Positions 1,529 to 51,700 of a stretch of 64,000 bases of DNA are shown piece by piece. Position numbers and translations under genes: made by a program. The notes beneath the pieces were generated by a model. The model searched no databases and was not told the origin of the DNA. It was given only the letters and a program-made list of their open reading frames with translations. Every line of letters begins with the position of its first letter. The first letter of the stretch is position 1. The stretch is from Neckera pumila. Lineage: Eukaryota; Streptophyta; Bryopsida; Hypnales; Neckeraceae. Location of the stretch: assembly GCA_963969595.1 (NCBI GenBank), contig OZ018412.1:2854501-2918500 (forward strand), written 5' to 3'.

Positions 1529-2072
1529 GTGCGTGGGAATTTTAGATAGTTCAATACTATTTTTTGCAAAGCATTTTAAATTCATTATATTTGTTGTAAG
1601 TAAATTATAATTGTAAATTATAATTTCAAAGTAGCCCTTGGAATCAGATTTGAACAGAAGTCTTCTTAAGCTTCCATATAATTGTTTATGGTTCTTGTTT
1701 GTTGTAAGAACAAAATTACATCAAATTCTTGAGTGATATCCCATTAACCACAAATCTTTTAAGATTGTTGGAGTAGTATTTGAATTGGAGCCAAAGAGAA
1801 AGAACATGCTATGAGCTAACTCCCAAATTTTCAGCTAAATAAGGTACAATGGCCTTCCTAATTAATTGCTTTAGTGACAATTTAAAACTACTTTCAACTA
1901 TTGTCTTTTGCAATTGTATGTTATCCCCTAAAGCACTAAGGAATCATGGTTTTAAAATGAAAATTTAGTTACTTGTGTTGTCAAAAGAAACCTTATATGA
2001 AAGGGTTTTTTGTGCCATGTATTAAGATTTTGTTTTGTTTTGTTGCATTTGCACTTGACAGGATTATTTGCA
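1529..2072. other. AT-rich spacer
   Basis: This stretch between the proteasome remnant and the hAT transposase start is AT-rich. I see no exon or terminal inverted repeat in it. It may contain the 5' leader of the transposon. Confidence 0.4.
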
Positions 2073-4930
2073 ATGGCACCAGTAACTATTCGAGCAAAGA
2101 AGGTCACGGTACTTGATTCTTATTTCATTTCAAGTCAGAATTCAGCTGATAGGAGTGCCATTGACGTTCCACAACCTATTGTCCTTCCAACTTTGAAGAA
2201 GAAATGGCGGAGGTTTGGTGGCAATGCTTCAACAAGTGCCACAAACTTGATGGAAGGCTTGTCTATTGGAGATGAAGATTGTCATGCACCTGTACGGAGC
2301 AATGTGGCTGTTCAGCTCGTTTGCCTTGGTGGATTACCCACCCTTGTGCTTGACAATTCAGAAGTTCATGAGATTGTTGATCTTGATGAAAAGGCAGCAG
2401 ATGGCAAGAAAAAGTAGAAGAGCTATGAAGTATCCAGAAAGTGTCAAGATGCATGGGCAATTGATCATCCTTGGAGTGAGATGATTCATGGAGATCGGGA
2501 TACTACTGTTCATCGTGTGAAGTGTGTGGTGTGTTCATTTGTTAAAGGACGACCTGTCACTATGGGTCCAAAATCTGACACTTTGATGAAGCATGCTGGT
2601 AAAAGAGTTGCAAAGAAGGATCTCCCTCATATTGGAGTGAAGAAAGATGAGAGTTACATTGCTTTGGGTGCTAGGCATCTTAAAGCTCATGCAATTTATA
2701 ACTCACAGTCACTTAGTGGTCCCACCATACTTGAGAAGGTTCAGAAGGAGTTTAAGGGTGAGAAGGCATGTAAGATTGCCCAATTTGGGACTGTTTTTCA
2801 CCTCCTAAAGCATGGTAGGCCCATGGTTGAATATGAGGCCCTTAAAGATTTGTTTGCATTTCTAAAAATGCCAAATCCAAGCAAGAAACATTGGAGTGAC
2901 AATTCTGGTTGGCTCATTGCTGACTACTTGTACAAACAAGTTGTCAAGAAAAACAAGGAACTATTGGCAGAAGCAAATTATCTTGCTTTCACATGTGATG
3001 AAGTTACAACAATTGACAATCAAAGTTGGATATCTATCCATGGATATGTGGTTTTGGATTTCTATCGGGTTCTAATCTTGGTCAGTTTGGAGAGGGTAAT
3101 AGAAGGTGGATCAACTGCAAAGTTGTCAATTTGCATTGCTGATGCCATTGCCAATCATGGAGGTGTGAGCAAGGTTGATCTACTTCGGAAATTTCTCTCA
3201 TTTGGTGCAGATGGAGCTGCTGTATTTCAGGTACTATATTATATACCATGCCTTTATAATTTTAGTCATTTGACTTGATGCGTGCATGTGATTTATTTTT
3301 AGTTGCTATTTTTCATTCTATCCATTTTTGATGTTAGTATGATATTGGTTGCACAGGGCTCTAGAGCTGGAGTTACAAAGCTTCTACAAGATACAATCAG
3401 CCCCCACATGGAGGGAGTTCATTGTGTGAGTCATCGCACACAATTGGCCATCAAGGAACTAGGTGATCTACCAGTCATTGCCAAGATTGAATCTCTGATG
3501 AGCCAATTGAATGGCTACTTTGGGTCCAGCCCCAAACGGCACCTTGAGTTTACTAAGCTTGCTGCTATTTTGCATACAAAAGGCTTGAAGCTTTTGAAAC
3601 AAGTGAAAACTCGTTGGTTGAGTATGCTTTCCCCTCTGGTTCATGTGATTTCTGAGTATCGTACACTAGTTGCAAAACTAGCTGAAGATAGCAAAGACAT
3701 GGAGGCAACTAGAAAGCAACGTGCATTGGCTTCTGCACTTTTAGCTTTATTGTTGAATGTCTCCATACCTGTGGCCTTGTCATGCTTCTTACCACTACTC
3801 CAAACTATGAACTCCCTCATGAAGTTTGGACAACAAAGGGACATTTTCATCTGCGATTATTTGGGTGCTGTAAAGGTATGTCAAGGTCAGCTATATTCTC
3901 TATATAGTGATCCCAAGACAAGCTTCTCTTCTGATGCATTCATGGAGTTCAAGCAATTGTTAGATTGCAAGCATGGAAGCATGTCACTTGTTTGGATGCC
4001 TCATTGTTTGGATTTGAATGAATCTTGACTTTTAGACCAACTATCATATGTATGTGGAGAGAAGATTTATCCAGCTACATATTTGAACTCAAATGGAAGA
4101 GATGCATCAGTGACTCATGAAGTCTTCAACATCTTGGTGAAAGATATCAAGGAATTGTGCACTGGTGAGTTTTTCTTTTAATAATTTTTTAGCTTATGGA
4201 TGTCACTTTTATGCTTCATTTTTATTTGATTTTGAAGTTGTTTTGTTTGCTTTGAAGTTGTTAACCTTGCTTTAAAGTTGTTGATGCTCTTGATGTAGAA
4301 CATGTGATATAATATTTATTCAAGTACAATGATGTTGTGGGCCTTGTTGTTGCAGCTGAGTCCTTGGTCAAGGACCTTTCAAATCGGTTCCCTGCAGCTA
4401 CACTAATGGATGCATTAGGAGTTGTCTACGCTCAATATTGGCTGCAGCCAAAATGTGAAGAGTTATTTGAAGCACATTTTTCTGTTATCAAGGCTCACTA
4501 CTGTCAACAACGACATGGAGTTTCTATTGCCTCAGAGCCTATCCTCTCATAGTACAAACTCAACCATGAATGCTCTGCTTTTAAGGGTGCAATGAAGGCT
4601 AATGCAGCTGATGCAATGCAAAAACCCATCTTGGTTAATCCATTGACACGGTTGTGGAAGACATTGTCTACTTCTAACATTTTGAGGAAGCATTTTGGTG
4701 AATGGTTCAAGGTGGCTGAAATAGCTGCAGTTCAAGTCCTTGAATCTGTAGAAGATGAGCAAACATTTTCTACAGTGAGCTTCACAAAGAACAAACTTCG
4801 AAATCGATTGACTGAGCACCTGGCTCCGGTTGTGGGCATGTTTAGTCAGAATCACTTTACTCTTGAGACCTTTCCATTTGACAAGGTGTATGATGAGTGG
4901 AGAGCTGACAAAAAGCGGCAGAAAGAGTAG
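2073..4930 (+). pseudogene. hAT-superfamily transposase gene (BED-like finger, RNase H core, C-terminal dimerisation), three nonsense codons
   Basis: hAT transposases cut and paste DNA in the nucleus. Three exons (2073-3230, 3357-4164, 4356-4930) join across GT-AG introns (3231-3356, phase 0; 4165-4355, phase 1) into one 847-codon frame. A BED-like finger is at about 2520-2640 (VKCVVC, then LMKHAGK). The core shows FTCDEVTTIDN (about 2990), FGADGAAV (about 3200), GVHCVSHRTQLAIK (about 3415) and KTRWLSML (about 3605). The dimerisation region carries EDEQTFSTVSF and KNKLRNRLTEHL (about 4755-4825). Overall it resembles the KIAA1586/ZNF862-like hAT group. The frame is broken only by in-frame stops at 2415-2417 (TAG), 4026-4028 (TGA) and 4550-4552 (TAG), each one C-to-T change from Gln or Arg. 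There are no frameshifts, so inactivation is recent compared with the other remnants here. I chose the ATG at 2073 because upstream codons look non-coding. I did not find terminal repeats. Confidence 0.92.
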
Positions 4931-16128: not shown

Positions 16129-16260
16129 TTAACCCCTAAAGGACCAAACAATGTTTTTTGGCAACATTGCGATTTTGGACAACTCACTACAAACGGAGTT
16201 TTTATTTTTTTTCTTTGAAAATTTCACAAAACATGTGCCCTAGGAGTAGCTTTAAGGACC
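16129..16260 (+). mobile_element. Solo end of a TTAA|CCCCTAAAG element
   Basis: TTAA at 16129-16132 is followed by CCCCTAAAGGACCAAA, almost identical to the element end at 63508. I could not find a matching right end downstream, so this copy is truncated. Confidence 0.45.
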
Positions 16261-16447
16261 AACAATTTCCATAACATTTGACTACACAGTTAAAAAGTTA
16301 TTGCATGATATGTAATTTTCCGCGTTTGGTGGGCAGCCCGGGCAGCTCAAAAACTCCTTCAAAAATCATTTTTTTGAAAAATGAAAAAGCTAGAAGTGGT
16401 TCTAAAGAAACATTTAAGAGTGGAAAAGTTTGAATCACTCTCTTTTG

Positions 16448-16557
16448 TTTAATGAGGTGAGAGTTATTAAGAATTCCAGTTTGTGGGTGGGTTTGGAATC
16501 TAGAGACTGTATACCTACCCACAAACTGGAATTCTTAATAGCTCTCACCTCATTTAA
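16448..16557 (+). repeat. Long near-perfect hairpin (41-bp arms, 28-nt loop)
   Basis: The arms at 16448-16488 and 16517-16557 are reverse complements at 39 of 41 positions. One mismatch lies near the base; the other would be a G-U pair in the plus-strand transcript. The centre of each arm holds GAATTC with AACTGG/CCAGTT flanks. Size and pairing suit a foldback transposon or a young small-RNA precursor; the sequence cannot decide between them. Confidence 0.7.
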
Positions 16558-16560
16558 CAA

Positions 16561-17118
16561 ACTATATGGGACATTGAAAACACTAAATTTAAATTTTGGT
16601 GGAGCAGCACACAAACGTCCAATAGGATGTTTTTTGCATGTCTCAAAGGCCGCTCTGATGACGTCTCTATAGATGTTTTACCAACTGTGACTATGTTTCT
16701 TAAAACATCTAGAAGTCTACAAAAACATACAGAAAACATCTCAACATTTTATAAGATGTCTTTAGTGACATCTCTATATCTACTTAGACATCTCCAATAC
16801 AAGTGTAGAAAACGCAAAGATGGGCTCTTTATACAAGTGGAGTGGTAGGGGGGAAGACAAACTATATGGGACATTGAAAACACTAGATTTAAATTTTGAT
16901 AGAGCAGCACACAAACGTCCAATAGGATGTTTTTTGTATGTCTCAAAGGCCGCTCTAATGATGTCTCCATAGACGTTATATTGATTGTGACTATGTTTCC
17001 TAAAACACCTAGAAGTCTACCAAAATGTCCTAAAAAACATCTAAACATTTTATAAGATGTCTCCAGTGACATCTCTACATCTACTTAGACATCTCCAAAA
17101 TAAATGTAGAAAACGCAA
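16561..17118. repeat. 300-bp tandem duplication
   Basis: Copy 1 starts at 16561 and copy 2 at 16861 (both actatatgggacattg), with few differences. Each ends in a cluster of gatgtct/agacatc motifs in both orientations, the kind of subterminal array seen in CACTA elements. It directly abuts the hairpin to the left. Confidence 0.85.
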
Positions 17119-17137
17119 AGAGACAGCCATGCTATGC

Positions 17138-17205
17138 TGACGTGGCATGCCACATTAGCATAATTTTATGCCACGTCAACTAATTTACACGTGGCATGCC
17201 ATGTC
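17138..17205. repeat. Short inverted repeats containing ACGTGGC/CACGTGGC cores
   Basis: TGACGTGGCAT (17138-17148) and its exact complement (17168-17178) form an 11-bp stem with a 19-nt loop. CACGTGGC follows at 17188-17195. These contain ABRE/G-box cores but probably belong to a transposon, because they sit between the 300-bp duplication and a CACTA-like end. Confidence 0.45.
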
Positions 17206-17559
17206 ATCTTATTTTCTCCAAAAGCTGCTTGGAGGCTGTCCAATCCCTTTTTTTTAACCTTGGTCAGACTTTTATCCAAGGAAAAATTGATTTTCAAAAA
17301 ATTACCCTCCTTGAAATTTTTCCCCCAAAGCTAACGTGGCCATCCATGTTTTTGCGGACGCCTTGTTGGACATCAATGAGTCCTTAAAAATGTAATCAAA
17401 AATCTCAATGTCCTTGGGAACACCAATTGGTTCCATTCAAATTTTCTGCAGTTATCTAGAACATCCTTGGAAATTTATCCTAAACTGCAATCCTCTTCTT
17501 TAATGTCTTGATGTCTCAGCGGACATAATACATTAGGCCTTGGACATCGCCTGTTTTTG

Positions 17560-17594
17560 GGCAGACATAAAAAAAAACACAGGTTTTTTATAGT
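17560..17594 (-). mobile_element. CACTA-like terminus (minus strand CACTATAAAAAACCTG)
   Basis: Read on the minus strand from about 17594, the sequence begins CACTATAAAAAACCTG, consistent with a CACTA terminal repeat. Together with the subterminal agacatc motifs to its left it may close the element that contains the 300-bp duplication. The left end was not found. Confidence 0.4.
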
Positions 17595-17680
17595 GGTCAT
17601 CAATTGAAGGATATTCTACAAGCTCCACAGAGTCTTCAAACGACGGAGAATAACAACAAGGCTTGGACACAGACGCACGC

Positions 17681-18016
17681 ATGTGGCCAGCTGAGCTTCT
17701 TCACTCTCACTATTTCTTCAAAAACAGACGAAGACAGAGAAGGACACAAAGGCATATAAGAAGCGGAGATCTTAAAAGCCGGAGAAATTTGGTGGGAACG
17801 GAGGAAGATAGAGGAGATTGTTGCGGCTTCTTAAGCACTCAGGAACGGTTCTTTGCATGGAGCGACACAGGTGGTTCAAATAATGTTGAAGGAAGGATGG
17901 AGTTGCTGCCACGTCCCAATAATGCAATTCCAGGAACGCGTAGTGCAACGCAGGCAGGATGGTCATACAAGCAAGCGGGGTGGCCGAGTGAGCAGGGGCC
18001 GTTGATGGGCGAATAG
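17681..18016 (+). CDS. Hypothetical small ORF in a GC-richer block (doubtful)
   Basis: This 111-codon frame starts at the ATG at 17681 and lies in a block (about 17640-18110) visibly richer in G and C than its surroundings. It is basic in its first third (NRRRQRRTQRHIRSG) and then has no recognisable domain. The minus strand is also open over much of the block, which weakens the coding case. There is no recognisable partner gene. It may be a gene fragment or part of a transposon. Confidence 0.15.
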   Translation: MWPAELLHSHYFFKNRRRQRRTQRHIRSGDLKSRRNLVGTEEDRGDCCGFLSTQERFFAWSDTGGSNNVEGRMELLPRPNNAIPGTRSATQAGWSYKQAGWPSEQGPLMGE

Positions 18017-18110
18017 GGCCCAGGGACAAGACAGCAAGGGCCTTGGGGGCAGCAAATTGGAGAGGAGGGCGGCAATTTTGAGGGAAGCTTAGGAAGGGAG
18101 CCTAGTAGGT

Positions 18111-19050
18111 GGGTCCTCTTATTTTTAGATACCAGTTTATAGGCAGTTTAGAGGCACTTGACTCTATGTAGATATGTTGCTCACTAGAATTTAGTTATTA
18201 GCCTTTTGTTGTTAGCCATACATAATAGAACATTTGGATAGGGCCTTGCAAATGTGACATAATGTAAAACTTCACATACATATAGGGGATAAATTCGGAA
18301 GTAGTATTGAATTGTCCAAAATTTGATGATGGATTTTTTGATAAAAATTTATTTACTTCACAATATTCATAAATACTTTCTAGGCTTCAAAAACAATCAA
18401 GAATTATTTCTGTCCTTGAAATAAAATGGAACTTCTGTAAAATAATTTTTTATTATGAAAATTGTAAGTCAATGTGAAAAAGAAAGGAAAGAGAACAAAA
18501 AAAGTAGGACATGATTCTTAGGGATTTAGGGGAGAAGAAAGGTAACAAATATTAAAAAATGCAAATTGGGAGTACTAACAATTATTAGTTTCTAATTTAT
18601 TTTTCTTAGCACGGTAATAAATGTACAATGACTTGCAACAATAGTAAGCCACCATAGGAATTGCTCCTATAAATTGAAAATTGAAATTGTGAAGTGGAAT
18701 TTGGACATATTGTTCTATAAAAGCAATTCCACCTATATGTATAATTTCACTTAGAATTTATTATTTTTATACCAATTATAATTTGAAATAAATTTGTATG
18801 TAGAAATAAAATTTGGATAAGAAGTTAGAATGCCTCATATTTTATTATGTAATAATGCATTTTTTCATTGAATTACATAAAGGTTGGAATTTTCCATGAA
18901 TTATTTGCATGAATGTTGGAATTTATTGATAGCAATCATTTAGATTGAAAATAGACCTTACAATTTTTGGAACCAAATTTTTGCACCATTTTATTCCAAA
19001 TGAAAAATGTTTTGGTATATGTATCTATTTCAAATAATTCTAATGAAGCA
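18111..19050. other. AT-rich, no gene seen
   Basis: Strongly AT-rich sequence without open frames of note, leading into the decamer array. Confidence 0.5.
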
Positions 19051-19054
19051 TTAC

Positions 19055-20165
19055 ACTTAGAGCAATCCAATTTTGGATTCCAATTTAGTGGTCTAATTTA
19101 GGATTCCAATTTTGGATTCCAATTACTTCAAATTAGATGAAGAGAAGATTCCAATTAGTTCAAATTAGATCAATTTAGGATTCCAATTACTTGCACATTA
19201 GTTTCATAACTTCAAATTAGTTCCAAGTAGTTCCAGTAGTTCCAACAAGTTCTAATTACATCAAGTTAGGATTCCACTTTGATCTTTTTAGGATTCATAC
19301 TAGTGGGTAATAGTTCCAATTAGATATATTTTACTTCCGGTTAGTTCCAGTTACTTAGTTACAAGTAGTTCCAATTATATCAATTTAGAATTCCAATTAC
19401 TTGCACATTAGTTTCATAACTTCAAATTAGTTCCAAGTAGTTCCAGTAGTTCCAACTACTTCTAATTACATCAAGTTAGGATTCCACTTTGATCGTTTTA
19501 GGATTCATATTAGTGGGTAATAGTTCCAATTAGATATATTTTACTTTCGGTTAGTTACATTTACTTAGTTACAAGTAGTTCCAATAATATCAATTTAGGA
19601 TTCCAATTAGATCTAATTAGTTCCAATTAGATCTAATTAGTTCCAATTAGATCTAATTAGTTCCAATTAGATCTAATTAGTTCCAATTAGATCTAATTAG
19701 TTCCAATTAGATCTAATTAGTTCCAATTAGATCTAATTAGTTCCAATTAGATCTAATTAGTTCCAATTAGTTCCAATTAGATCTAATTAGTTCCAATTAG
19801 TTCCAATTAGATCAATTTAGGATTATACTTAGATCAATTGGGGTGCAATTACATCTCCAATTAGTTCCAATTAGTTCCAATTTCAATGAATGACTTCTAA
19901 TTAGATCAATTTAGGATTCCATTTAGATCAATTTGCTATTCCAATTATATCCAATTAGTTCATATTACTTCTAATTACTTCATATTACTTTCAATTAGTT
20001 CTAATTAGTTCCAATTAGATCTATTTAGTTCCATTTAGTTCCACTTTCATCAATTTAGGATTCCAATTTGTTCCAATAAACTCCTAAATTACTTCAAAAT
20101 TCCTTCTAATTAGTTTAAATTACTTCAGATTATTTCCAATTACTTCATATTAGTTCCAAGTACAT
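19055..20165. repeat. TTCCAATTAG-like decamer satellite with nested 20-bp and 210-bp periods
   Basis: The whole block consists of variants of ttccaattag, ttcaaattag, ttctaattag and gatcaatttagga. Between 19601 and about 19820 it is a near-perfect 20-bp tandem array (ttccaattag plus atctaattag, about ten units). Two 210-bp higher-order copies precede it (19171-19380 and 19381-19590, each starting caattta gga/gaa). It lies immediately upstream of the piggyBac remnant. Confidence 0.9.
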
Positions 20166-20491
20166 CAATTTAAAATTCCACTTGAATATTTTTCTTTTCC
20201 TTTGTTTTTACAATAAGAAATTATGCTTTATGACTTGATCTTCTTTACAAAGTAGTTCCATACTATTTCTCCAATGGCATTTGATTTGAACCGTATTATA
20301 TATTAGAAGAATCTTTTTAGGTTATTTTGTACCTATTAGTCAAACGAATATCAACCGCATGGTTGCATATGCTTCTATAAATCACATTAGATAAAAATAG
20401 TTGGAGCTACTAATAGATATCCAAATATGTACCTATTTCTTTATTACTTGTATTTTTTTTTTTTAGTGGAACTTCAATCGGTGTGTTCTAA
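20166..20491. other. Spacer before the piggyBac remnant
   Basis: AT-rich. A TTTTTTTTTTAG acceptor-like tract at about 20453-20466 may precede the first readable transposase exon. No TTAA|CCC terminus was recognised here. Confidence 0.35.
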
Positions 20492-22393
20492 TTGTACAAG
20501 CGCGGTTTTATATTTGGTGCACCTCCCATACCACCGGATTGGATCAATGAGGAGTTCAACGATTTCAATGATGGTGGACCTTTGTCTCCACCTCCTCTAC
20601 ATGAAGTGGATGGTATGCCAGCTAATGAGGTACATAGAAATCTTCTAAGGGTGCCTCAAAGAGGGAGGGTGCAAGGGAAGAGGGTGGATAATTATGCTCC
20701 AATGTTGAGTAATTCATCAAAAAGTGAGGGTGCATACAAAGGGGATGAAAGTAGTGATGGAGGGGACCCCAACAATCCTTTGAGTGTGAAACATATGTTT
20801 CGAGATTCAACATGGTCGCGCTCTCATATCACCTTTTTTTCGGAACCCAAAAAGTTTATAGGGGCACAGGGGGCTATAAGAGTGTTTAGAACAATGCCAA
20901 CATTTATGCAGTTGTTTTCATTGTTTTGGCCCTATACTCTCTTGCGGAAAATCGTAGTCGAGAGTAACCGCTATACAACTACAACTGATGACCATGGGAA
21001 AAGCAAGGAGAGAAAAGGATGGGTACCTATGATAGTCACCACTTTGAACGCTTATTTGGTAGCTCGAAGTTTCATGGGCTTGAAAAAACAACTGAATATG
21101 AAGACATATTGGAGCAAAGAAGGCTCGTTTTTTTCATTGTCCACGAATTTCTAAACTTTTATCAAGGGTGAGATTTGAGGCAATTACACAATGTCTACAC
21201 ATCACAAATCCAGCACACTATGTTATGGAGAGAGATACACCCGGTTATGATAAGATGAGGCAAGTACGATGGCTTGTACATGACATTAGGGATAGCTTCA
21301 AGCGTGAGTGGTCTTTGGGGAAGTACCTAACTGTAGATGAAATGATGATAAGATACAAAGGCTCCTATTGTCCAGCTAGGCAATATATGCCAAAAAAGCC
21401 ACAAAAATGGGGCATAAAAGTTTGGTGTCTAGTGGATTCCGTATCCAAACATGTGTTCAATTTTGAGATTTATTGTGGGGCCGAACAAAATGTTGTACCT
21501 GACATACCAGTGGTAGTTAGCGGACAACCAAATGTAGCGCATAAGGTGGTGATGAGGTTGGTGAGTGGACAAGAGGGAAAAGGGCATGTAGTTGTCATGG
21601 ACAACTACTTCTCTAGCATTGGTTTGTTCATGGAATTGGCCGCAGTAGAGATATATGCTATGGACACTATGAGGTGCAATCAAGTGGGCCTACCAACAGA
21701 ATTGAAAGCAGTTCAAAATTGGACCAATGCACCTCAGGGTACATTGGAGTGGAAAATGCATGAATCGCAGGGAATTGCGTGTATAATTGTGTGGAAGGAT
21801 GAACGTCCAGTTCTTGTCCTTTCTACTCATGTTTCGCTTATAGGATTCCCATGTATGCCGGTACCTACGGTTCCCCATAGAAATAGAGCTAGAAGAGACC
21901 TAGTTCACACCTCACCAATGCATCTAGAGTATACCACCCACATAAGGGTGGTGGATGTGGTGATTCAACTTCGAGCATCATACTCCAGCCAAACTTGATC
22001 GTACAAATGGTGGCACCAAGTTTTTTACTTTTTGCTTGACACAACGGTGGTGAACATGTATATAATCTATCTAGCAAGCTTGCACCAATGTCATTGTCAA
22101 AGGAAAGCAATTACCCACCTCCAATTCAAGGCCGATTTGTGTGATGCTCTCACACAAAATTGGTGTGGTTGTGGAATTGATGTGGATGAAGCACAGGAGC
22201 ACCAAATCCCCATATGCCCACTTCTAGTCAACTCCGACGTGCATGCCTAGTATGTGGTGACCACAATTGTAGGTATTATTGTCGGACATGCAATCGAATT
22301 TTTTTGTGTCTGAATCGGGGGTGTTTTGAAGAATATCACTATGGACCCCAAATTCGCAATGGAAGAAACCATGCCCCACAGGTGATAGGGTAA
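20492..22393 (+). pseudogene. piggyBac-superfamily transposase (DDE_Tnp_1_7 type) remnant
   Basis: piggyBac transposases move elements between TTAA sites. The readable frame starts just after a stop at 20489 with no upstream ATG. The N-terminal helical domain (WSRSHITFF, FSLFWPYTLLRKIV, then GWVPMIVT, MGLKKQ) runs to about 21130. There a T run near 21128-21134 shifts the frame, and reading continues as HCPRISKLLSRVRFEAI. The catalytic aspartates are all visible: LTVDEMM (21336-21338), VVMDNYFSS (21600-21602) and VVDVVIQLRASYS (21954-21956). The MGG before the third Asp is lost. TGA at 21996-21998 interrupts RSYKWW (CGA to TGA), and reading resumes with FYFLLDTTVVNMYIIY. From 22229 another frame gives the C-terminal zinc-binding domain (C-x2-C-x4-C-x3-C-x2-C-x5-C-x4-C ending EEYH). 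Domain order is full length but the gene is dead. Confidence 0.93.
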
Positions 22394-23140
22394 ATTCACC
22401 ATCATTTTTATACCACCCTCTCTATTTTTTTCATAGCACTTGTCTATTTGTTTCATGGGGGGGTGCACTTAGTATAGCTAATCCAAACTACGTGCGACCA
22501 AAACTTTGTACCCCCTATATTATATCCTAAAATTTAAATAAATGAAAACAAAAAAAATATGAATATATTTTCCTAATTTGAAAGTTTATGTTTTGAATTA
22601 TTGATGTTTTATTTGCTAATGATAATTAGTTACAAATTTTTGAAGTAAATAGATACACTGCAGAACTGAAAAATAACTTTCACACCCCTATATTATATCC
22701 TAAAAAATTGTCTAAAAAATGAACACAAAATTCCTAAAAATAAATCTCTATTGAAAGCTCATTTTGAGTTTAATATTGATGCAACTGTCATCTAAATGTG
22801 TTCTATATAAATATTTGAGTTGAAAAATATACCATTTTAGGTTCATTTTCATTGTGGTGGTAGTAGTAGAACCAAGTGCCCTCCCCAAGATTTATTTCCA
22901 TGCCTTCACCATTTTCTCCCCAAACACCCTCTCCATTTTTTTCATAGCACTTGTCTATTTGTTTCCATGCCTTCACCATTTTATCCCCAAACACCCTCTC
23001 CATTTTTTCACTTCCCCCTATTTTCTTCCAAATATTGGGGTTTATCTCTAGAAACCTATTATAATTTTTGGGTGTACCCAGCTTATGACAAATTTCAAGA
23101 AGTGACAATGACAACCATCAATTTGGAGAAAATGTAGGAG
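22394..23140. repeat. Non-coding DNA with a repeated 40-85 bp motif
   Basis: The segment ccctctc(t/c)atttttttcatagcacttgtctatttgtttc appears at about 22409 and again at about 22927. Around it ttccatgccttcaccatttt(c/a)tccccaaacaccctctcc is tandemly repeated (about 22897 and 22961). No gene seen. Confidence 0.7.
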
Positions 23141-23395
23141 GAGCAAAGGGGAGCTATTGTGGAGCAATAGGGAGCTCACTATGGAGCACCAAGGAATTTA
23201 CGGTGGAGCAACAGGGAGTTACTGTGGAACAACAAGGAGCAAAGGGGAGCTATTGTGGAGCAATAGGGAGCTCACTGTGGAGCACCAAGGAATTTACGGT
23301 GGAGCAACAGGGAGTTACTGTGGAACAACAAGGAGCTACTGTGGAACAACAAGGAGCTACTGTGGAACAAGAAAGAGCTATTGTACCAAGCAAGG
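23141..23395 (+). repeat. Minisatellite: 96-bp unit built from 15-bp subunits
   Basis: The 96-bp unit (23141-23236 and 23237-23332) starts gagcaaaggggagctattgtgg and is followed by further 21-bp units gagctactgtggaacaacaag. Because 96 and 21 are multiples of three, one frame stays open and would encode EQQGATV-like repeats. I see no start context or splice sites and treat it as non-coding. Confidence 0.85.
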
Positions 23396-23527
23396 GAAAG
23401 CTATTGTGGACGCATTTGTAGCCCAACTAAGAGCATTCCTCCCATAGTAGAGGTGGGGCAATCACAATATAGAAGTTTCTTATGATTTTAATTTTTTAAT
23501 ATGGAAGATCAAGACTTCATGTTCTAA

Positions 23528-23528
<1 letters not shown>

Positions 23529-23617
<89 letters not shown>

Positions 23618-23625
23618 TTTTTTTT
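23529..23625. repeat. (AT)n microsatellite followed by poly-T
   Basis: About 36 AT dinucleotides are followed by about 25 T. Confidence 0.95.
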
Positions 23626-23759
23626 GTAAACATCCTAACACCTTTTAGAACCATATAAGAAATTGGTGATTTGAATGATGTGTACAACCTTTCTAAGTGT
23701 GATTCTACTATGAAAAAAGTACATGGGCTTATAATTATCTCCTAAAAAAAATTGGATTT

Positions 23760-24151
23760 TGAGACATCTTCTAATTTATGCCCTCCAAGTATGTGAGATG
23801 CTTTGGAAGTCATCCTTCACACAATGCACACACCTCATATTTGGAAAGCATGCCAAAATTCCTAAACCAAGAAGGATGAAAATGAAAATAAAAAATGAAG
23901 CCATGAGGCTTGTTCTAATTTATGGCCTCCAAGTATGTGGGGATGCTTTAGAAATCATCCTTCACACAATGCACACACCTCATACTTGGAAAGTATGCCA
24001 ACATTCCTAAACCAAGAAGGATGAAAATGAAAATAAAAAATGAAGCCATGAGGCTTGTTCTAATTTATGGCCTCCAAGTATGTGGGAACGCTTTGGAAGT
24101 CATCCTTCACACAATGCACACACCTCATACTTGGAAAGTATGCCAAAATTC
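23760..24151. repeat. 145-bp tandem repeat, three copies (last partial)
   Basis: Copies begin at about 23760, 23905 and 24050 and share ctaatttatg(c/g)cctccaagtatgtg and ccttcacacaatgcacacacctcata. The third stops after about 100 bp. Open frames through it are incidental. Confidence 0.9.
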
Positions 24152-24593
24152 TTTAAATGAATTAAAACAAAAATTTGAATTTACATTTAGTAACCTTGTA
24201 AGAGAGTACTTATATATATTTAGTGTAAGCAAATATATAGATATAAAAATATATGTAAATATAAAATGAAACTATATACATATATAGTATTTACAAAGTA
24301 AAAGATTAAATTTTATTTTTAATCTCCATGTTATTTTTGGATGTGAGGCCTAAAATTAGTTCAAAACTTATACTTAGAACAAATATTTTCAATTATTCTA
24401 CATGTGTTTTCTAAAAATTCAAAGGTATCCTAGTCTTTAGTGATTGTCAAAAAACTTTAGAGAGAACTTTGGAAATTAGTTTTATGAAATTTTTTCAAAT
24501 TTTTAAATTCAAGTAATTTGCAAAGATTTCACTCATGCTATGTATATAATTCATGTGAACTAATGTGACCCTGTGCCGTTGGCCCAATTTTCA
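24152..24593. other. AT-rich, no gene seen
   Basis: No open frame or motif of note. Confidence 0.5.
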
Positions 24594-24701
24594 TCTACTC
24601 CCGGTTCCACTCCTGGTTCTACTTCCGATTCTACTCCCGGTTCCACTCCTGGTTCTACTTCCGATTCTACTCCCAGTTCTACTCCCGGTTCCACTCCCAG
24701 T
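24594..24701. repeat. 12-bp minisatellite (ctactcccggtt-like)
   Basis: About nine imperfect 12-bp units alternate ccggttccactc, ctggttctactt and ccgattctactc. Confidence 0.85.
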
Positions 24702-24911
24702 ACCAAGAACGCCACCAAAATCAAAATAAAAGTAATTTTCTAATTTTTTAATCAATAAATATTTTGAAATTCAATAACTTTTGCACCACCGCTCCAAACG
24801 CCACGAAACCAAGCCGGTGCACCCCTCCTCGGCGAGAGCTTTCCGACGGTACCAAGCATGCGGCCGAGGGACGCACGGTCAGGAAGTTGTCCAAACTACA
24901 AACAAAATACA

Positions 24912-24953
24912 ACAGAACAAAACAAAACAAAACAAAACAAAACAAAACAAAAC
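24912..24953. repeat. (AAAAC)n microsatellite
   Basis: About eight AAAAC units, just right of a short GC-rich patch (24785-24895) of unknown origin. Confidence 0.9.
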
Positions 24954-26585
24954 TGCTTTTTTTGGAACATCCCAAGATTGGGCATTAATCTGTTCTTGTC
25001 TATTCTTGCATTAGATCAGTTCCACTTTGTTTCATGACACAGATTATACTTTGTCCATATGTGCTTTCTATATTTCTTGACAGGAAACAACTTGCACCAG
25101 CTGTAAGAAACTTTTACTTGCAATGTTCTAAACTCATGCAGTCTTTTATCAGAAAAGACTTGCTATATCACACAAAATAAAGCTCAAATCTCTTTCCACT
25201 ATAGATTTTCCTCATACATCATATGGAATATCCATCATCTTTCCTTCTAAGTATAAGCAAGTTACAGCATAAATCATGAATTAACGGATCTAGAGTTTTT
25301 GGAGAGTTTCGAAAATGCTCCTAGAGGCTGCAGACCTCACCTGTGCCCATCCCACAACATGACAAAAATGGAATGTTAGTAGGGTACACGAGGTGTCTTC
25401 AATCTGCAAGCGCTTGTTATTGCTTTCACTAGGAGAACTTAATCAAATACAACATCAAAAACATGCTACATCAAGTTGCTTGCTCGCTTAGTCTGTCAAC
25501 CTGGAAACATGCGGAGGAATGTGAAGTGTTCGCCATATTGAAGAGATTTCCCACTCTGTTTTTTACCACTCAGAAATGCTCAGCACCAAATCGTAAACGT
25601 ATACAGTAGGACTAACTTCACAAAGCAAGAATCGATCATTTGGATCTACACTGCCTCCGTAGCAGGTACCACTCTCGCAAGCAAACCCAGCAAACAACTC
25701 TGCAGTCTAGGATGTTTAGGATTGAGCCTAAGTCTGCTGTCAGAAGTTTCTTTCATCACCGTCAAAAATTCTCTCTCATCACCGGCAGTCAGTGATTGCA
25801 CAGGTGATGAAACTCATCAGCCACAGTATGTATTTGCAATCTGAAGTCATTAAAACTTAAACTTCTAAGTTTGCAACTTTGTCACAGAGCAATCATAGTA
25901 AGACTATGCATCCAGCCGATTTGATGAAAAAAATTTGGTACGCTTGTATTAGTACCAGTAACGAACACCTGCTGGCTAATAAAGTCCATTACTTTCAAAG
26001 CACAGTGGCGGCCAAAATTTTTTACTCTTGCTAATTTTCAAAATACTACACAAGGTTGAACTGTTTCATTATGCTGTGCTTTAAGCATACAACTCATACC
26101 CCCATAGTACAAACTGTTTACTGTAATACGTTGAATTAAGTTATGGTGTCTTAAGATCCCAATGGGATAAGATCTATTAGATCTTTTCAAAATTCCTCCA
26201 TTAACTTCATGGGTGGGAGGGTGGGAATTTTTATCATTCTTTTTAATGATCTCTAAATCAAAGAAATAGAGAGTTGAATAATCAAAAAACCTATATTTTC
26301 TTACTCAAAAATATATAGAGAGTATAATAGTCAAGCATTCTAACTCTTTTTGAACAAATAAATATGTAGGAAGTAGACTAATTAAGAGGTCTGTTTCTTC
26401 CTAAATCCTAAAAATATAGAGAGATTAGACTCCTCATATAGCAAAATTTATAATAGTAAATATGTCATGTCAAAGATATTTGTCTATTTTTATCACGTAA
26501 ATTTTCTTTGTTTCCAATAGGGCTATCTTAAAGTAAGTATGTCCTAAGAATGATTCTAGCCACTTGAACTTGACTAAGGAATCTT
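24954..26585. other. Gene-poor, moderately GC-richer stretch; possible orphan exon on the minus strand
   Basis: The sequence from 25000 to 26100 is less AT-rich than its surroundings and resembles untranslated or intronic DNA of an old gene. On the minus strand 25813-25646 is open, is coding-like (contains AGDEREFLTVMKE and NPKHPRLQSCLL) and ends at a TAG at 25648-25646. It could be a terminal exon, but no upstream exon was found and I do not recognise the family. Confidence 0.25.
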
Positions 26586-26586
26586 G

Positions 26587-26661
26587 GAAAACAAAACAAA
26601 ACAAAACAAAACAAACAAACAAACAAACAAACAAACAAACAAACAAACAAACAAACAAACA
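26587..26661. repeat. (AAAAC)n/(AAAC)n microsatellite
   Basis: Four AAAAC units are followed by about fourteen AAAC units. Confidence 0.95.
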
Positions 26662-27047
26662 GCTTCATTTAAGGTATTGATATTTGAAAGCAACTATACC
26701 AAATTCAATGAAAATTGTCAATCTCAATGGTGACAAAGTAAAAGAATTCTATTATAAAAGGGTTGTTTTACTTTTCAAAGGTGAAATTATTCTAATGTCA
26801 ATGGTTCCTTTCACTTTTCAATAAAATAAAAGAACTCCAATGTGAAATGTATCTTTTACATTTCAAAAATTAAAAGAACTCTAATATAAGAGGTTGTTTT
26901 ATCTTTTAAACATAAGTGTATAAAAAGAATGGCAAGAGCCATATAAAACATTATTTGCGTTTATTACATTGGATTTATTTACAATTACTAGTTGTTATCA
27001 AGTTTGAATTATAGATTTTAATTTTATAAAACAATAGAAAATCCACA

Positions 27048-28153
27048 ATGACAAAAGGGAGAGGAAAAGGCAATGTGAGCCTAAAGCACAAGGCTCATGC
27101 AAGAGCACGGTATGAGAGAACTTTGAAGAAAACATTTAAAAGAATAGGTCCACATAAAGAAAATGAATGCGTAATGATTTCACTACCTCGCAATTTGGAA
27201 GACAATGCTTTAGATGGAACAATTATAGATGAGGTTCCAAAGGACTATTTAGCGGTACACAAAAACAAAGTAGCCATCCAAGATAAGAGTACCAAAGAAA
27301 TAGTGCTAGTGATTTCTTTCACAAAATTCAAAGACATTGAATCCTCTAAAGAATATGAAGACTTCGAGAAACTAACAATGTCTCTAGCCAAATTGAGGAA
27401 GGGAGGCTCGGGCTACATAAAAAACAATAAGGCCCAAGTTAATGGAAAAATGTTTGCATTGGGATGGAGAGGTGGCATGGATAGAGGATACACCATGGGT
27501 CACTATGTCATGGGGCGTAGTATTAAAAATTCTGAAACCACTATAAATGAATGGAAAAAAGACCAAGTGGAGTTGGTCAAATGGATTGCAAAATTTTATG
27601 AATCAAGGTTTATGGAACTAGGACCATGCATATACGGAAAAAATATTGATGAGGCATTGCAAGTTGGCGTTCCATTATTAGGCCAAACAGAATTACAAAT
27701 CTGGAACAAAACTTTGTAGGATTCACAAGCACTCTCACTTACACCGTTGATGATTTTTACAATACCATCCATCGGGATCAAGATCATAATTCTTATGTGT
27801 ATGAAATTTGGGCACCTACAAATTGGGAGATTGGCTAAAGCAGATGATGGATTTTATTGTAATGGGGGCACTTTGTTATTCCAAGTTACAAACTCTATGT
27901 TGACTTTGGAAGATGTGATGGCATTGTTGAAATAATTTGGCGAGGAAAAAATGACTTCTACGCTACTTCACAATCAAGAATGATAGAAGGATTTACACGT
28001 GTTGGCACATCTACATAAATACCTAAAAGTTTGGTAGATAGAGTAAAAAGTTTGATAAAAAAGCAAAGAGATGGAAAAGATGTGAATCCCCAAGTACGTG
28101 GACTAAAAGAAATTGTTGAGCAAAAGAAGCAGAAACTACATCATAATAGATAA
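27048..28153 (+). pseudogene. Tet-like (TET/JBP-type) 2OG-Fe(II) oxygenase pseudogene
   Basis: TET/JBP enzymes oxidise 5-methylpyrimidines in DNA using Fe(II) and 2-oxoglutarate. From the ATG at 27048 a basic N-terminus (KGRGKGNVSLKHKAHARAR) leads into the domain, with GKMFALGWRGGMDRGY at about 27450. Near 27683 the frame shifts. The next frame gives FTSTLTYTVDDFYN and the metal-binding H-R-D (27770-27778), then YEIWAPTNWEIG. A second shift at 27830-27838 gives ADDGFYCNGG. A third at the G run near 27865 gives HFVIPSYKLYVDFG, then CDGIVEIIWRGKNDFYAT, and the 2OG-binding Arg in FTRVGTST (codon 27998-28000). The position where I expect the second metal His (D-x-H-x-T) is Tyr (TAC, 27959-27961). 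TAA at 28016-28018 replaces an expected Gln. A tail of about 45 residues ends at 28153. The match is to the Tet-like group expanded in basidiomycete fungi, recalled from memory. Confidence 0.82.
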
Positions 28154-28305
28154 AATACTATAGTTTCTAATAAAACATTTTAGGGACTTATAAACTTTAT
28201 AAAAATATAACGATTTACCTATTTGTTGTCTAATTTGAAACTATTGTACATTATAATGGATTGTTTTTGTTTCAACTATGTGAATCCTTCTAATTGAATC
28301 ATATT
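28154..28305. other. 3' flank of the Tet-like remnant
   Basis: AT-rich; no motif beyond ordinary AATAAA-like hexamers. Confidence 0.3.
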
Positions 28306-29245
28306 TTGTTTCGTTAGCTTCCCATTTTATTCCCTAAACCATTTGAATGGCAAATGGTTTAGCTTTCCATTTTTTCCTAAATTGCTTGAATGGCGATTTC
28401 GTTCCTTAGATTTCCATTTTTTTTCCTAAACCGTTTGAATGGCAATTTCTTTCATTAGCTTCCCATATTTTTTCCCTAAACCACTTGAAGGATAATATAT
28501 GTCCAAAAGCTTCCCATTTTTTTCCCTTAGCTTCCCAATTTATTTTTTACTTATCATCAAATTTTTTCCTTGTAGCTCTTTAAATTTTTTTTACCTTCTA
28601 CAATTTTGTACTTCCTTTCATATTTATATCCTAACCTTTGTGTTTACCTCTAAATACCTTTTACACTTTTTTGGCTTCCCTTTATAATAGTCTCATAATT
28701 TTTTTGGCCTACCTTCATAAATGTGTCATAATCTTGGGGTTTATATTCCTAAACCTTCTATAATTTGTTTGATTATCTTCACACTTGTGTCCTATTTTTT
28801 AGGGGAACCTTTCTATTTTTTGAGGGGACCTATTTTTTGGCGTGTCCTCAATTTGGGATTTATCACCCTAAATCTTGTTTTTCTTACTTGTATAATTGTG
28901 TCCAAGTTTTTTGGCCTACCTTCATTATTGTGTTCTAATTTTTTGACTTACCTTTATAAAGCTTCTATAAATTTTTAGCTAAGATTTTTAGTTTCTATGG
29001 TGGAATTTCATTTCTATCACTTCCAATTTTTTTCCATGCCATTCTATATCCATTGACATTCTTTATATTTTTGGCCCCCATGAAACCTTAGTCTAAGAGG
29101 GCTTTTAATTTTTTTCATGAATGGGGTAGTATTTTTTGTTTGTATGTTGGATCTTTATTTTCATCTTCCCCTATTTTTTTCTAAAGTTATAGTATTTTTT
29201 ATTTTTATTTCTATGGTGGATTTAGTTTCCTCAGCTCCTATCTGA
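28306..29245. repeat. T-rich imperfect repeats
   Basis: A roughly 60-bp motif (gcttcccatttt...ccctaaaccatttgaatggc) recurs three to four times from 28310 to 28500. It is followed by looser 50-90 bp repeats of tttggcctaccttca and ctaaaccttctataattt. No coding potential beyond low-complexity frames. Confidence 0.6.
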
Positions 29246-29850
29246 GGTAATTACACCTAAAATTGCACACTACAGATTCTTGCCTAAAATGTACTCCTAC
29301 TATTTATGAGAATCTATAATCGCTTTCAAAAACATCTATTTGAATCTATATTTGAATCTATAATTGCTTTCAAAAACATCTATTTAAAAAACATCTATTT
29401 TCGCACTTTGAAAATTCGTAGTTTATTCATATGATGTCTATAAAATGCATTCCAAGAGATTCTAAAATCTCCTTTTCATTACCAATAGGATTCCACAAAA
29501 AAAATATTCCAATATAATAATGGGAACCATGCTGAATTGCTTATTTGTGTGATTTTAGGTGTACCTACCTTGAACTCTAAAATCCAACCCAAATCCATTT
29601 CAGACATGACCTAAGGTATTTTTGGGGGGCTGGATGAGCGCAAGGGCACATGTTTGGGACTTTGGGCAGGTGAGGTAGTGGAGTCCAAGGGAAGGTGAGG
29701 TGGCGGGGTCCAATTGACGCTGAGGTGGCAGGATGGGGTGAGGGAGCAGAGCAAGTTGATGGGGGTGGGGGAGCATTTATGAGTGCACTGTGCTTTCCAG
29801 AAAAAAAAATAAAAAACAAAGGTGCCTTAGGGCCACTTCACACTATGGCC
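29246..29850. other. No gene seen
   Basis: A G-rich tract (29615-29775) of ggtgaggtgg-like repeats gives a spurious proline-rich minus-strand frame. I do not call it. Confidence 0.5.
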
Positions 29851-29855
29851 GTCGG

Positions 29856-30070
29856 TTGAGAGTCCGTCGGTTTCTACCAATCAAATTTCAGAAACCCCGA
29901 AGTTTGGCCTCTTGAGCCTTTACACTACGCGCCACAATCCAAAGTCCGTCGCTCTCAAAACTGCCTACATGGCAGCAAAATGCTTACATGGCAGAAAAAT
30001 TCGACGGACTCTCAAGGAGAGTTTGGATCTTGCAAAATGTAGGACCCAAACTCTCCTCGAGAGTCCGTCA
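29856..30070. repeat. GAGAGTCCGTCG inverted-repeat cluster with a 24-bp hairpin
   Basis: The motif gagagtccgtc occurs at about 29857 and 30059, and inverted at about 30003. Arms 30003-30026 and 30046-30069 pair at 23 of 24 positions around a 19-nt loop. A MITE or small-RNA precursor is possible. Confidence 0.65.
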
Positions 30071-30159
30071 AATTTTTCAGAATTTTTTTTTCATAAAAAT
30101 AAGAAACTGACAAGATCTTGGCCGCTAGATCTCTGTGGACTGTTTTTCTCGCCTCTCCC

Positions 30160-30232
30160 TTTGTTATTTGTTATTTGTTATTTGTTACGGAGTATTTTTT
30201 ATTTTTTATTTTTTATTTTTTATTTTTTATTT
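30160..30232. repeat. (TTATTTG)n and (ATTTTTT)n microsatellites
   Basis: Four ttatttg units are followed by about five attttttt units. The long hydrophobic frames over them are low-complexity artefacts. Confidence 0.85.
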
Positions 30233-30239
30233 GTCGCCG

Positions 30240-31107
30240 TTGGGGTTTGAAACCTAGTCTCCACCATGACAATGGGGAGTCTTTACATTCAATGTACCTA
30301 CTTCCTTTTGCATTCCCTTTGCATAGGATGCCCCCTTCTTATTCCAGTGCCATCCTCTTATTCCATTTATATCCTTTATATTGCTTGTTTGATGATGAGA
30401 GCATGTGTTGTGATTTTTTTTCCAAGGCCGTTTATGACCCTTTTTCCATGTTTTTTTACCTATCATTTATTGCTCATTTCTTTGGACTTTCACCAAAAGT
30501 TTGGACTCTCAATCCCATGGCCTCTCGACTTGGACAGCCATAGTGTGGTTGACATCGTCTCCTCCTCCGACTCTCCACCCTTTACCCCTCTTGCTGCGGA
30601 GGATGACCCAGCATTTGAAGGCTGCCCTCACCTTTGCTTCAGGCACATGAGGCTATGACTTCATTTTTGTTGTCAAATTTTGAGATTTTGAGATTTTTGA
30701 ATATAGATGGTTCCTCATGGTAGAATACTTGTAATTCATTGTCTCCACCATTTGGATTTTTCAGGGGAAGTGATTAGAGTTATGAATTCAACCATAGAAA
30801 AATTGCCAATGTAAACTGGATTTCTTAAACCTATGCCTACAATTTTGGCATTTTTCATGTGCTCTACACTTGCTTTTGGGCTGAATTTTTTTGACCATGT
30901 TCCTAACTTATATGAGAAGCCAAATCCAAGGAGTAACCACCAAAATGGAATTCCATTCATGTCAATTTTAGCAGTCAAATAGCAGCTGCCCGCAATTTCA
31001 GCAGTGAAAAAATAAAAAATCTCAAATCTGAACCCTTAGATCTCACTCAGTTTGAGGAATTTAACCGTGAAAATTGGTAGGTAGGTAAATAATGTAGATA
31101 AGTTCAA
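30240..31107. other. No supported gene
   Basis: Mixed sequence with frames open by chance on both strands. No domain recognised. Confidence 0.4.
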
Positions 31108-31226
31108 GATCCTACGGTTACATGTGTACAAAAATGTTGTTTTTTTTCAAAAATTGGTACTTGTACTAGAAGTGGCAGTTTTGGAGTGTTTTTGGTAAAA
31201 ACATAGTCAAAACCTTTAGGGGTTAA
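31108..31226 (-). mobile_element. Truncated end of a TTAA|CCCCTAAAG element
   Basis: gatcctacggttac...ggcagttttggag...aacctttagggg|TTAA (TTAA at 31223-31226) matches the right-hand end of the element at 61904-62825 (gatcctatggtta...cctttagg). The remaining part is not recognisable upstream. Confidence 0.6.
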
Positions 31227-48700: not shown

Positions 48701-51700
48701 GCTCTTGTACAAGTGTTTGTTCAGGTTCTCGTGCAAGTTCTCTTATAGGTGCTTGTTCAAGTTCTTGTGTAGGTTCCACGCTTGATGCAGGTACTAGAGT
48801 CTCCTTTTGAGCTACAAGATTGATTCCCATGGCTTCACCAGGTTCATCAGGGCCTACACCAAACTCTTTGAAAGATTTTGGTTCATTAGATTCCCAAGAC
48901 TCTAAGTTGCCACTGTCATACTCTGCGTCGAAAAACTCCTCACTTGATTGATCACTCTCGAGACGATCATCATTGTCTTTTGTAGACAAACTCTCGTCGG
49001 AACCAACATGAGCCAAATTGCTTTGACTCCATGGAAATTCCTTCCCAATTCCTTCGATGCGCTGAAAAAGTACAAAAAAAAGCAAAAAAAATCATTTCAA
49101 AAGAGTGTTACTAGTAATACTTGAGATAGAAATTTTTGTCTTTCTGGATTTGAGATGGGTAATGGCATGTGAAGGAGAAGACTTCTTGTGACCCAGCATC
49201 AATACATTAACCTACTGCAATTACTCTAGTAGAAATCTTACCTCATGATGAACCTTGAAGTCCTCCGCTAATTTGTACTTAGACTCCATTGTTGCGTGCT
49301 TGTCCTCATCCATTGTTGATGTCAATGTTGAATCTGCACCAGGAAGCACGATCCCACTTTTCTCTTCTGCACGTTCTTTAGGTTGAATACTTGTTCTCAA
49401 AGGCTCCTTCAAAGATGCTCCCTGAGGTATTCCAAAAAAAGATGCTGTTGGAGTTTCTGAAGATGCAAAAGCAATACGACTCTTTCCAGATACATCTTCT
49501 TTTGGAGGTTCTAAGACTTTTGTATTGGCTTCCGCTGCCAAAGACTCCTTAGTATACTCTTCTTTGCGTGCTTCCAATGAAGCAACTAAAGGTGACTCTA
49601 CAATTGCATTTATGGGACTACTCCTGTCAAATTCTTCTTGGGCATCCTCAAATGAAGAAGCCAATGGTGAATCTGCACCAGCACTCATGGTATCACTCTT
49701 GATAGCATCCTTGTCATGAGCACGCTCTCTAAACTTGGTACTCAATATAGTTGACGATGGCTCCTCCATAAACATAGATGCCACTTGTGGTTTAGAAGAT
49801 GCAAGCCCCCTATCACTGGTTGCATTCAAATCGTCTTGTGATGAAGGCTCATGAATTGGTCCACTACTAGGTGCGCTTGCCAAAGAATCCTCCTCAAAGT
49901 CTTCGTGAAAACCATCATGTGAAGTTGGCAATGGTGAATCTGCAAATGCAGTCATTGTAGCACCCTTACCACAATCCTCACGTGTAGGTTCCTCAAATCC
50001 GGCACGCACTTGCGATTCAGAAGATGCAAGTGCCTTATCAGCCGTTGCACCCGAATCCACTTGTGATGAAGGTTGATTAATTGGTCCCCTACTAGATGAA
50101 TCTGCCAAAGACTCCTCCTCAAGGTCTTCATGAGGACCATCATGTGAAGTTGGCAATGGTGACTCTACACGTGGAGTCATGGTAGCACCCTTATCAGCAT
50201 CCTCATGTGCAAGCTCCTTAAAGCCGGCACTCACTTGCGGTCCAGAAGATGCAACCGCCCTATCACTGGTTGCATTCGAATTGTCTTGCAATGAAGGCTC
50301 ATGGATTGGCCCACTACTAGGTACACCTGCCAAAGGCTCCTCCTCAAAGTCTTCATGAGGACCATCATGTGAAATTGGCAATGGTGACCCTGCAGGTGCA
50401 GTCTTCGAGGCATCCTTACCAACATCTTCACGTGTAGATTCCTCAAAGTCAGCAGTCACTTCCGGTCCAAAGGATGCAAGTGCCTTATCACTCGTTGCAC
50501 CCAGATCCTCTTGTGATGATCGCTCATGAATTGGTCCACTACTAGGTGTGCTTGCCAAATACTCCTGCTCAAGGTCTTTGTGAGGACCATCATGTGAAGT
50601 TGGCAATGGTGACTCTGTAGGTGCAGTCTTCGTGACATCCTTACCAACATCCTCACGTGTAGATTCCTCAAAGTCGGCAGTCACTTGCGGTGCAGAAGAT
50701 GCAACTGCCCTATCACTCGTTGCATCTGAATCCTCTTGCAATGAAGGCTCATGAATTGGTCCTTTACTAGGTGCACCTGCCAAAGACTCGTCCTCAAAGT
50801 CTTCATGAGGACCATCATGTGAAGTTGGCAATGGTGACTCTGCAGGTGCAGTCATGGTAGCACCCTTATCAGCATCCTCATGTGCAAGCTCCTCAAAGCC
50901 GGCACTCACTTGAGGTCCAGAAGATGTAAGGGCCTTATCACTAGTTGCGCCCGAATCCTCTTGCAATGATCGCCCATGAATTGGTCCACTACTAGGTGCG
51001 CTTGCCAAATACTCCTGTTCAAGGTCTTCATAAGAACCATCACGTGAAGTTGGCAATGGTGACTCTGCAGGTGCAGTCTTCGTGGCATCCTTACCAACAT
51101 CTTCACGTGTAGATTCCTCAATGTCGGCAGTCACTTGCGGTACAGAAGATGAAACCGCCCTATCACTCGTTGCATCCGAATCCTCTTGCAATGAACGCTC
51201 ATGAATTGGTCCACTACGAGGTGCGCTTGCCAAAGACTCCTGCTCAAAGTCTTCATGAGGACCATCATGTGAAGTTGGCAATGGTGACTCTGCAGGTGCA
51301 GTCATGGTAGCACCCTTATCAGCATCCTCATGTGCAAGCTCCTCAAAGCCGGCACTCACTTGAGGTCCAGAACATGCAAGGGCCTTATCACTCATTGGGC
51401 CCGAATCCTCTTGCAATGAACACTCATGAATTGGTCCACTAGTAGGTACGCTTGCCAAAGACTCCTGCTCAAAGCCTTCATGAGGACCATCATGTGAAGT
51501 TGGCAATGGTGACTCTGCAGGTGCAGTCTTCGTGGCATCCTTACCAACATCCTCATGTGTAGATTCCTCAAAGTCAGCAGTCACTTGCGGTGCAGAAGAT
51601 GCAACCGCCCTATCACTCATTGCACCCGAATCCTCTTGCAATGAACGCTCATGAATTGGTCCACTAGTAGGTACGCTTGCCAAAGACTCCTGCTCAAAGC

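Follow-up and report, generated by a model that had tools for sequence, protein, structure and literature searches.

The window analysed here is a DNA stretch of 64,000 nucleotides whose forward strand carries, at 27048..28153, a Tet-like 2OG-Fe(II) oxygenase pseudogene (PF20515) identified with Pfam and with profiles built from relatives. PF20515 was found in three co-linear pieces, each above the curated cut-off of 27 bits and with no read-through used: profile positions 25-113 at 27048-27719 (E 1.9e-10, 41.5 bits), 117-154 at 27653-27838 (E 4.4e-8, 33.8 bits) and 175-211 at 27863-28018 (E 2.3e-10, 41.2 bits). A frame-joined read-through of the gene matched the same profile with E 1.4e-38 and 133 bits. 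Two control profiles, made solely from relatives of other sources (four N-terminal and three C-terminal sequences), found only the Tet-like stretch in the window (4 rows; best 333.6 and 92.6 bits) and gave 0 matches at E<=0.01 in 30 dinucleotide-shuffled windows. These profiles do not span the HxD piece, which is supported by Pfam and by the relative P0005. The relative P0002 agrees with a gene start at 27048, and the C-termini of the relative P0006 and of the genomic copy L009 fit a stop codon that ends at 28153. By profile evidence, then, 27048-28153 is a Tet-like 2OG-Fe(II) oxygenase (PF20515). A sequence-only reading of the stretch had reached the same family call and proposed a profile search as its check; the searches uphold it, and the five motifs it listed occur in the order given, with GWRGG in frame 3, LTYT...FYN and HRD in frame 2, and CDGIVEIIWRGK and FTRVGTS in frame 2 again.

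PF12851, which we take to be the Pfam TET/JBP model, was absent at E<=10 for both the window read-through and L009, in searches whose HMMER filters lose most matches above ~0.1. No sequence match to any solved TET chain was obtained; searches of solved structures gave no hit, only antibody chains (E 0.54-1.3) or the one chain SC_2L4HC2_23 (E 2.7). As to the double-stranded beta-helix fold of TET/JBP oxygenases, structure models of the N-terminal part (A1) and of P0005 (A3) were of low confidence, with a mean pLDDT of 35.9 each.

Frame breaks in the window copy

The N-terminal part of the gene (27048..27692, forward strand) is intact; it carries the GWRGG motif, and its first 40 residues are basic (13 K+R, 3 D+E). 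It is followed on the same strand by a frame 2 piece at 27695..27832 that holds LTYT..FYN and the HxD iron motif (HRD), as seen with Pfam and in the alignment, by a short frame 3 piece at 27831..27881 (14.6 bits, E 0.003) between both frame 2 pieces, and by a frame 2 C-terminal piece at 27881..28150 with IIWRGK, a Tyr at the second iron-ligand position, FTRVGTS, a basic tail and one in-frame stop. Frame 3 is open from 27030 to a stop at 27719; frame 2 supplies 27653-27838, 27863-28018 and, beyond a single stop, 28019-28153. The window copy has three frame breaks and one stop. The joints between the frame pieces are too tight for introns, which makes each frame change either a lesion or an error of the assembly. 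Barring assembly faults at three places, the window gene is a pseudogene as read from the sequence. HRD is kept and the second iron-binding His is replaced by Tyr, which leaves the iron triad incomplete.

The breaks cluster in the protein: the relatives P0001 and P0004 end after NLE, P0003 ends eight residues later, and the frame of the window copy is broken at 27690-27698, within ~10 nt of the P0001/P0004 end point. Candidate readings of this cluster include contig ends, a hotspot and an old intron, and the shared NLE ends may mark a splice site. A CpG depletion peculiar to the Tet-like gene was considered and rejected, the observed/expected ratio being 0.42 in gene and whole window alike.

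Relatives in other sequence collections

Seven proteins from JGI, ENA and Logan contigs share 61-87% identity with the window gene over the aligned part (the search's own figures), and all seven cover the gene partially. P0002 is broken at a different place from the window copy and, taken alone, scores 26.4 bits against PF20515, just below the cut-off of 27. P0005, which represents 18 member sequences, keeps both HRD and the second His. P0006, a 1161-bp contig, joins a weak BED zinc finger (PF02892, E 0.014, below the cut-off) in frame to the final third of the Tet-like domain, as a neighbour from a transposon or a chimaera of short reads might do. With the full-length read-through as query, none of 1415 candidates in a word-search protein database reached E<=0.001, which counts against any intact relative of full length there, as far as a word search reaches. 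No relative of the window gene was found in IMG/VR, GTDB genomes or phage records, nor in PHROGs, where the two matches had E 0.11 and 0.32. Rfam at the gathering threshold found nothing in the window; four weak miRNA matches, seen with an E-value threshold instead, lay below gathering scores on simple or palindromic repeats and were discarded.

The proposed surrounding piggyBac-type element

Upstream of the Tet-like gene, on the same strand, lies a piggyBac transposase pseudogene (PF13843) at 20492..22247, in at least two frames, recognised with Pfam and by DNA homology. PF13843 matched 21102-21998 with E 1.2e-47 and 20492-21154 with E 1.3e-4 (21.9 bits, just below the cut-off of 22.4); the piece at 21999-22247 has no Pfam match and was included by DNA homology only (homology to 22374). 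A 145-bp minisatellite of 2.6 copies at 23769..24151 separates the two genes, and related sequence occurs upstream of the Tet-like copies in L009, L010, L011, L012 and L017. The right end of the element was placed at 31105..31226 (reverse strand) by homology with other copies, and sequence taken from this terminal stretch is also present at L009, L010, L017 and L018. We propose a whole piggyBac-type element of 15.1 kb at 16129..31226 (forward strand), corresponding to C5:2870629-2885726, with TTAACCCCTAAAGG at both ends (a 14-nt perfect inverted match including TTAA) and a left terminal inverted repeat with its TTAA target site at 16129..16142 (forward strand).

A copy at 8.12 Mb on C5 repeats the order transposase, minisatellite, Tet-like gene, right end. 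Its main segments are 73-93% identical to the window over ~10 kb with gaps, one segment being 68% identical; the transposases are 71% identical over 293 aa, and the Tet-like gene of C5 is split into two halves separated by 4.2 kb, which agree with the window gene at 90% and 83-88%. The sequence-only reading had offered mobile-element cargo as one option, and the evidence favours it: a transposase and the Tet-like gene occupy one piggyBac-type element, an arrangement that this second locus repeats.

The 14-nt end, read inward, stands at window position 31226, at C5:8119846 and at L010:7839. Over the last 700 nt inside it, the window agrees with the C5 copy at 547/652 positions and with L010 at 614/671, and the C5 copy agrees with L010 at 570/675, so that the three copies are 84-92% alike inside. 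Outside the right end, no match at E<=1e-3 was found over ~1.7 kb in any of the three pairwise tests; homology between copies ends exactly at TTAA. An exact stop at TTAA together with unrelated flanks indicates insertion at TTAA rather than segmental duplication. A segmental duplication on C5 could have copied a region that held a piggyBac transposase and a Tet-like gene by chance, and both loci with the two genes in order do lie on C5, ~5.2 Mb apart. Against this, the homology stops at TTAA, followed inward by CCCCTAAAGG, none was found past 31226 over ~1.7 kb, and the end recurs next to unrelated flanks in a third copy, located on C2. We regard such a duplication as very improbable.

The left limit at 16129 is a proposal. 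Among perfect 14-nt pairs anchored on TTAAC and spaced by 4-25 kb, the window has the left/right pair alone, and 200 mononucleotide shuffles gave one such pair. No match to the left end was found in the expected place and orientation in the C5 copy, where a related end points outward. An element end found upstream of L009 is similar to window 16186-16403, so the proposed left end may be that of a short relative of the element. TTAA followed by CCC, as at the ends of piggyBac transposons, was found at the right end in three copies and at the left end in the window only. The element resembles piggyBac DNA transposons (PF13843) in transposase family and, at its right end, in the TTAA target site and the CCC that follows it. 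It differs from them in a length of ~15 kb, provided that the left end is correct, and in carrying an oxygenase gene as cargo. Typical piggyBac elements are much shorter than this.

Generic TIR/TSD pairs near the Tet-like gene were dropped as chance-like. Position 3456 of L009 was likewise dropped as an end of the Tet-like element, since it suits a short repeat of 0.9 kb that L017 and L018 also hold. This repeat (L009:3456-4377, L017:2167-3107, L018:8243-9177) has a terminal stretch that matches the window right end and is likely, from this match, to be a non-autonomous piggyBac relative.

The Tet-like family in the genome

In the genome to which the window belongs (339.5 Mb, 18 contigs), at least 55 PF20515 matches were found, all over the cut-off (73/73 candidates scored), which correspond to about 41 places by our own grouping of the listed coordinates. 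The N-terminal part of the window gene was found in at least 63 stretches (80/80 candidates scored). PF20515 exceeded its cut-off in 0 of 14 control genomes (identity of controls not given). Twenty genomic places of 10 kb each were read together with the window, giving 21 loci.

The L009 match (C7:19091254-19091823) is without a stop and lies within a 370-aa frame. Of the 55 matches scored, it is the one that covers PF20515 positions 25-211 (of 211) unbroken (E 4.3e-45, 154.7 bits), and its iron triad is intact. The first reading had spoken of a remnant and had suggested searching the genome for intact copies. The decay of the window copy stands, but for a family with this many PF20515 matches the word remnant says too little, and the suggested search yielded this one unbroken copy.

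Of the 17 rows aligned to L009 that have a letter at the HxD positions, all keep Asp and 16 keep His. At the second iron-binding position, 8 of 12 rows with a letter have His and 4 have Tyr, the window among the latter. At the putative position of the 2-oxoglutarate-binding Arg, downstream of the second His, 12 rows show R (5), C (5), Q (1) and L (1), with Arg in the window; L009 has His. L009 may therefore lack activity despite its unbroken frame and triad, to judge from this residue.

Nei-Gojobori dN/dS against L009 was 0.15-0.50 in all rows that gave a value, 37 out of 39, the rows being aligned pieces of at least 60 codons from 20 sequences, with saturated dS in distant rows, some overlapping pieces and frame slips that raise some dN. 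These ratios indicate that the Tet-like family behaved as a coding gene through most of its history.

Several further features were seen at the loci read. At L011:4485-5837 and L013:4110-5688, pieces of the Tet-like gene form near-perfect palindromes, with a self-complementarity of 97.3% and 95.4%, respectively. The two belong to separate parts of the Tet-like family tree; as a lead, both could be sources of hairpin RNA. A 307-nt insertion relative to the window copy lies within the Tet-like gene at L010:4427-4733, and a Harbinger-type DDE_Tnp_4 transposase piece (L018:226-768, E 5.9e-21) lies ~4 kb from a Tet-like copy.

Strength of the transposase link

Mapping of the neighbours for transposases, as the first reading had suggested, showed PF13843 over its cut-off no farther than ~5 kb from the Tet-like gene in four of the 21 loci (the window, L012, L014 and L017). 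The L012 transposase matched with E 1.8e-50, and L014 and L017 hold divergent piggyBac pieces near divergent Tet-like copies. PF13843 is abundant in this genome, with 872 first-look candidates, of which 116 were scored and listed, all of them over the cut-off; many of these 116 lie in open frames of 500-1000 aa. If all 872 candidates are real, 0.59 loci with PF13843 nearby would be expected (P 0.003), and 1.02 at 1500 copies (P 0.02). With piggyBac so abundant, a neighbour alone means little, and what carries the cargo case is the common gene order and the common right end, not the count of 4 in 21.

No piggyBac piece was found within ~5 kb at 17 of the 21 loci (tblastn with the window transposase; Pfam on chosen frames), and tblastn gave no window-transposase match in the 11 kb upstream or the 4 kb downstream of L009. 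These loci leave room for a reading in which the Tet-like genes are a much-duplicated family of host genes, or else a separate mobile family of greater age, near which piggyBac inserted, one chimeric unit being mobilised once. The abundance of piggyBac candidates suits this account, as does L009, which is unbroken and has no other frame of at least 110 aa in its 10 kb. It has to reckon with two loci that have transposase and Tet-like gene in the same order, with three that share the TTAA right end, and with the divergent piggyBac pieces beside divergent Tet-like copies at L014 and L017. We consider it unlikely without being negligible.

Host traits and other features of the window

On the reverse strand, 49224-57122 is a 2633-aa open frame with ~225-bp tandem repeats that seems to belong to a gene interrupted by several introns; its 241-aa start has no Pfam match. 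Several frames at 2001-4927 (forward strand) have by eye the look of a hAT-type transposase, with no Pfam match over the cut-off. L020 contains a sub-threshold aminotransferase piece (Pfam), which to us looks like a plastid cysteine desulfurase. The T-rich introns of the 46-58 kb gene, the size and repeat content of the genome, the CpG depletion and this aminotransferase piece point to a plant host; we consider a land plant highly probable and a moss somewhat more likely than not. The window could instead be fungal (e.g. a low-GC rust) and hold the known fungal association, given that Tet-like genes are chiefly known from fungal transposons and that GC is 0.29-0.42 in most 2-kb steps. The introns of ~100-780 nt with T-rich 3' ends (boundaries by eye) speak against a fungal origin, as does the paper on fungal TET+ lineages, the main text of which contains the word piggyBac 0 times (PMC12730594). 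We hold a fungal window to be improbable.

Discussion

Taken together, we think it fairly probable that the stretch represents the oxygenase gene, now decayed, of a large DNA transposon of piggyBac type, an anti-silencing role included. This would be a transposon-borne anti-silencing oxygenase as in fungi, in an unlisted carrier superfamily and probably in a land-plant host. It is hypothesized that the transposon encodes a nuclear Fe(II)/2-oxoglutarate oxygenase, a nuclear placing that the basic first 40 residues would fit, and that this enzyme would oxidise 5-methylcytosine, or another methylated base, on the transposon's own DNA. Such oxidation would undo or dilute methylation silencing and allow the transposase to be expressed. 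Copies would later die through mutation and silencing, as the window copy may have done, and the two palindromic Tet-like loci might give rise to hairpin RNA that silences the family. The fuller picture, in which a moss-sized land-plant genome harbours piggyBac elements with their own Tet-like 5mC oxygenase, some of them intact, and answers with host hairpins, is tentative and in our estimate somewhat doubtful.

Iyer et al. 2014 reportedly described a KDZ association of TET/JBP genes, as well as a few lateral transfers of such genes to Viridiplantae; that work might already contain part of the present finding. According to a recent paper (Kojima 2025, PMC12730594), fungal DNA transposons carry TET/JBP genes, an anti-silencing role being proposed, not proven, and the TET+ transposons comprise 11 carrier lineages with hosts in three fungal groups. 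The present element is like these in having an HxD...H Tet-like gene inside a DNA transposon, often with many copies per genome, and unlike them in that the carrier is piggyBac-type and the host probably a plant. Of the types in that paper, PE is defined by HxE, AG is close to CcTET, the structure of which is reported, and PU is the rust-fungus type (PMC12730594); the window gene, with HxD and no match to any solved TET chain, falls in neither AG nor PE. The characterised enzymes named there, CcTET, NgTET and CMD1, have the same HxD...H arrangement of the iron triad as the Tet-like family, whereas no sequence match to a solved TET chain was found.

The plant ROS1/DME 5mC glycosylases, as described in PMC9368846, would counter DNA methylation too, by a host-encoded glycosylase route in contrast to a transposon-encoded oxygenase. 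TET genes are generally assumed to be absent from multicellular plants, and traces of plant 5hmC are disputed, according to PMC6949463. Among the best-ranked matches in the full-text literature searched, from which most subscription papers are missing, none reported a land-plant transposon or a piggyBac element with a Tet-like gene.

The 5hmC dispute gains a concrete candidate in this Tet-like family, which is multicopy, probably transposon-borne and unbroken in at least one copy, and piggyBac would be an added superfamily among the transposons that carry Tet-like enzymes. The self-erasure of a methylation mark by a transposon becomes a testable idea. If the proposed mechanism is true, land plants would have TET-type base oxidation after all, in a parasite-encoded form.
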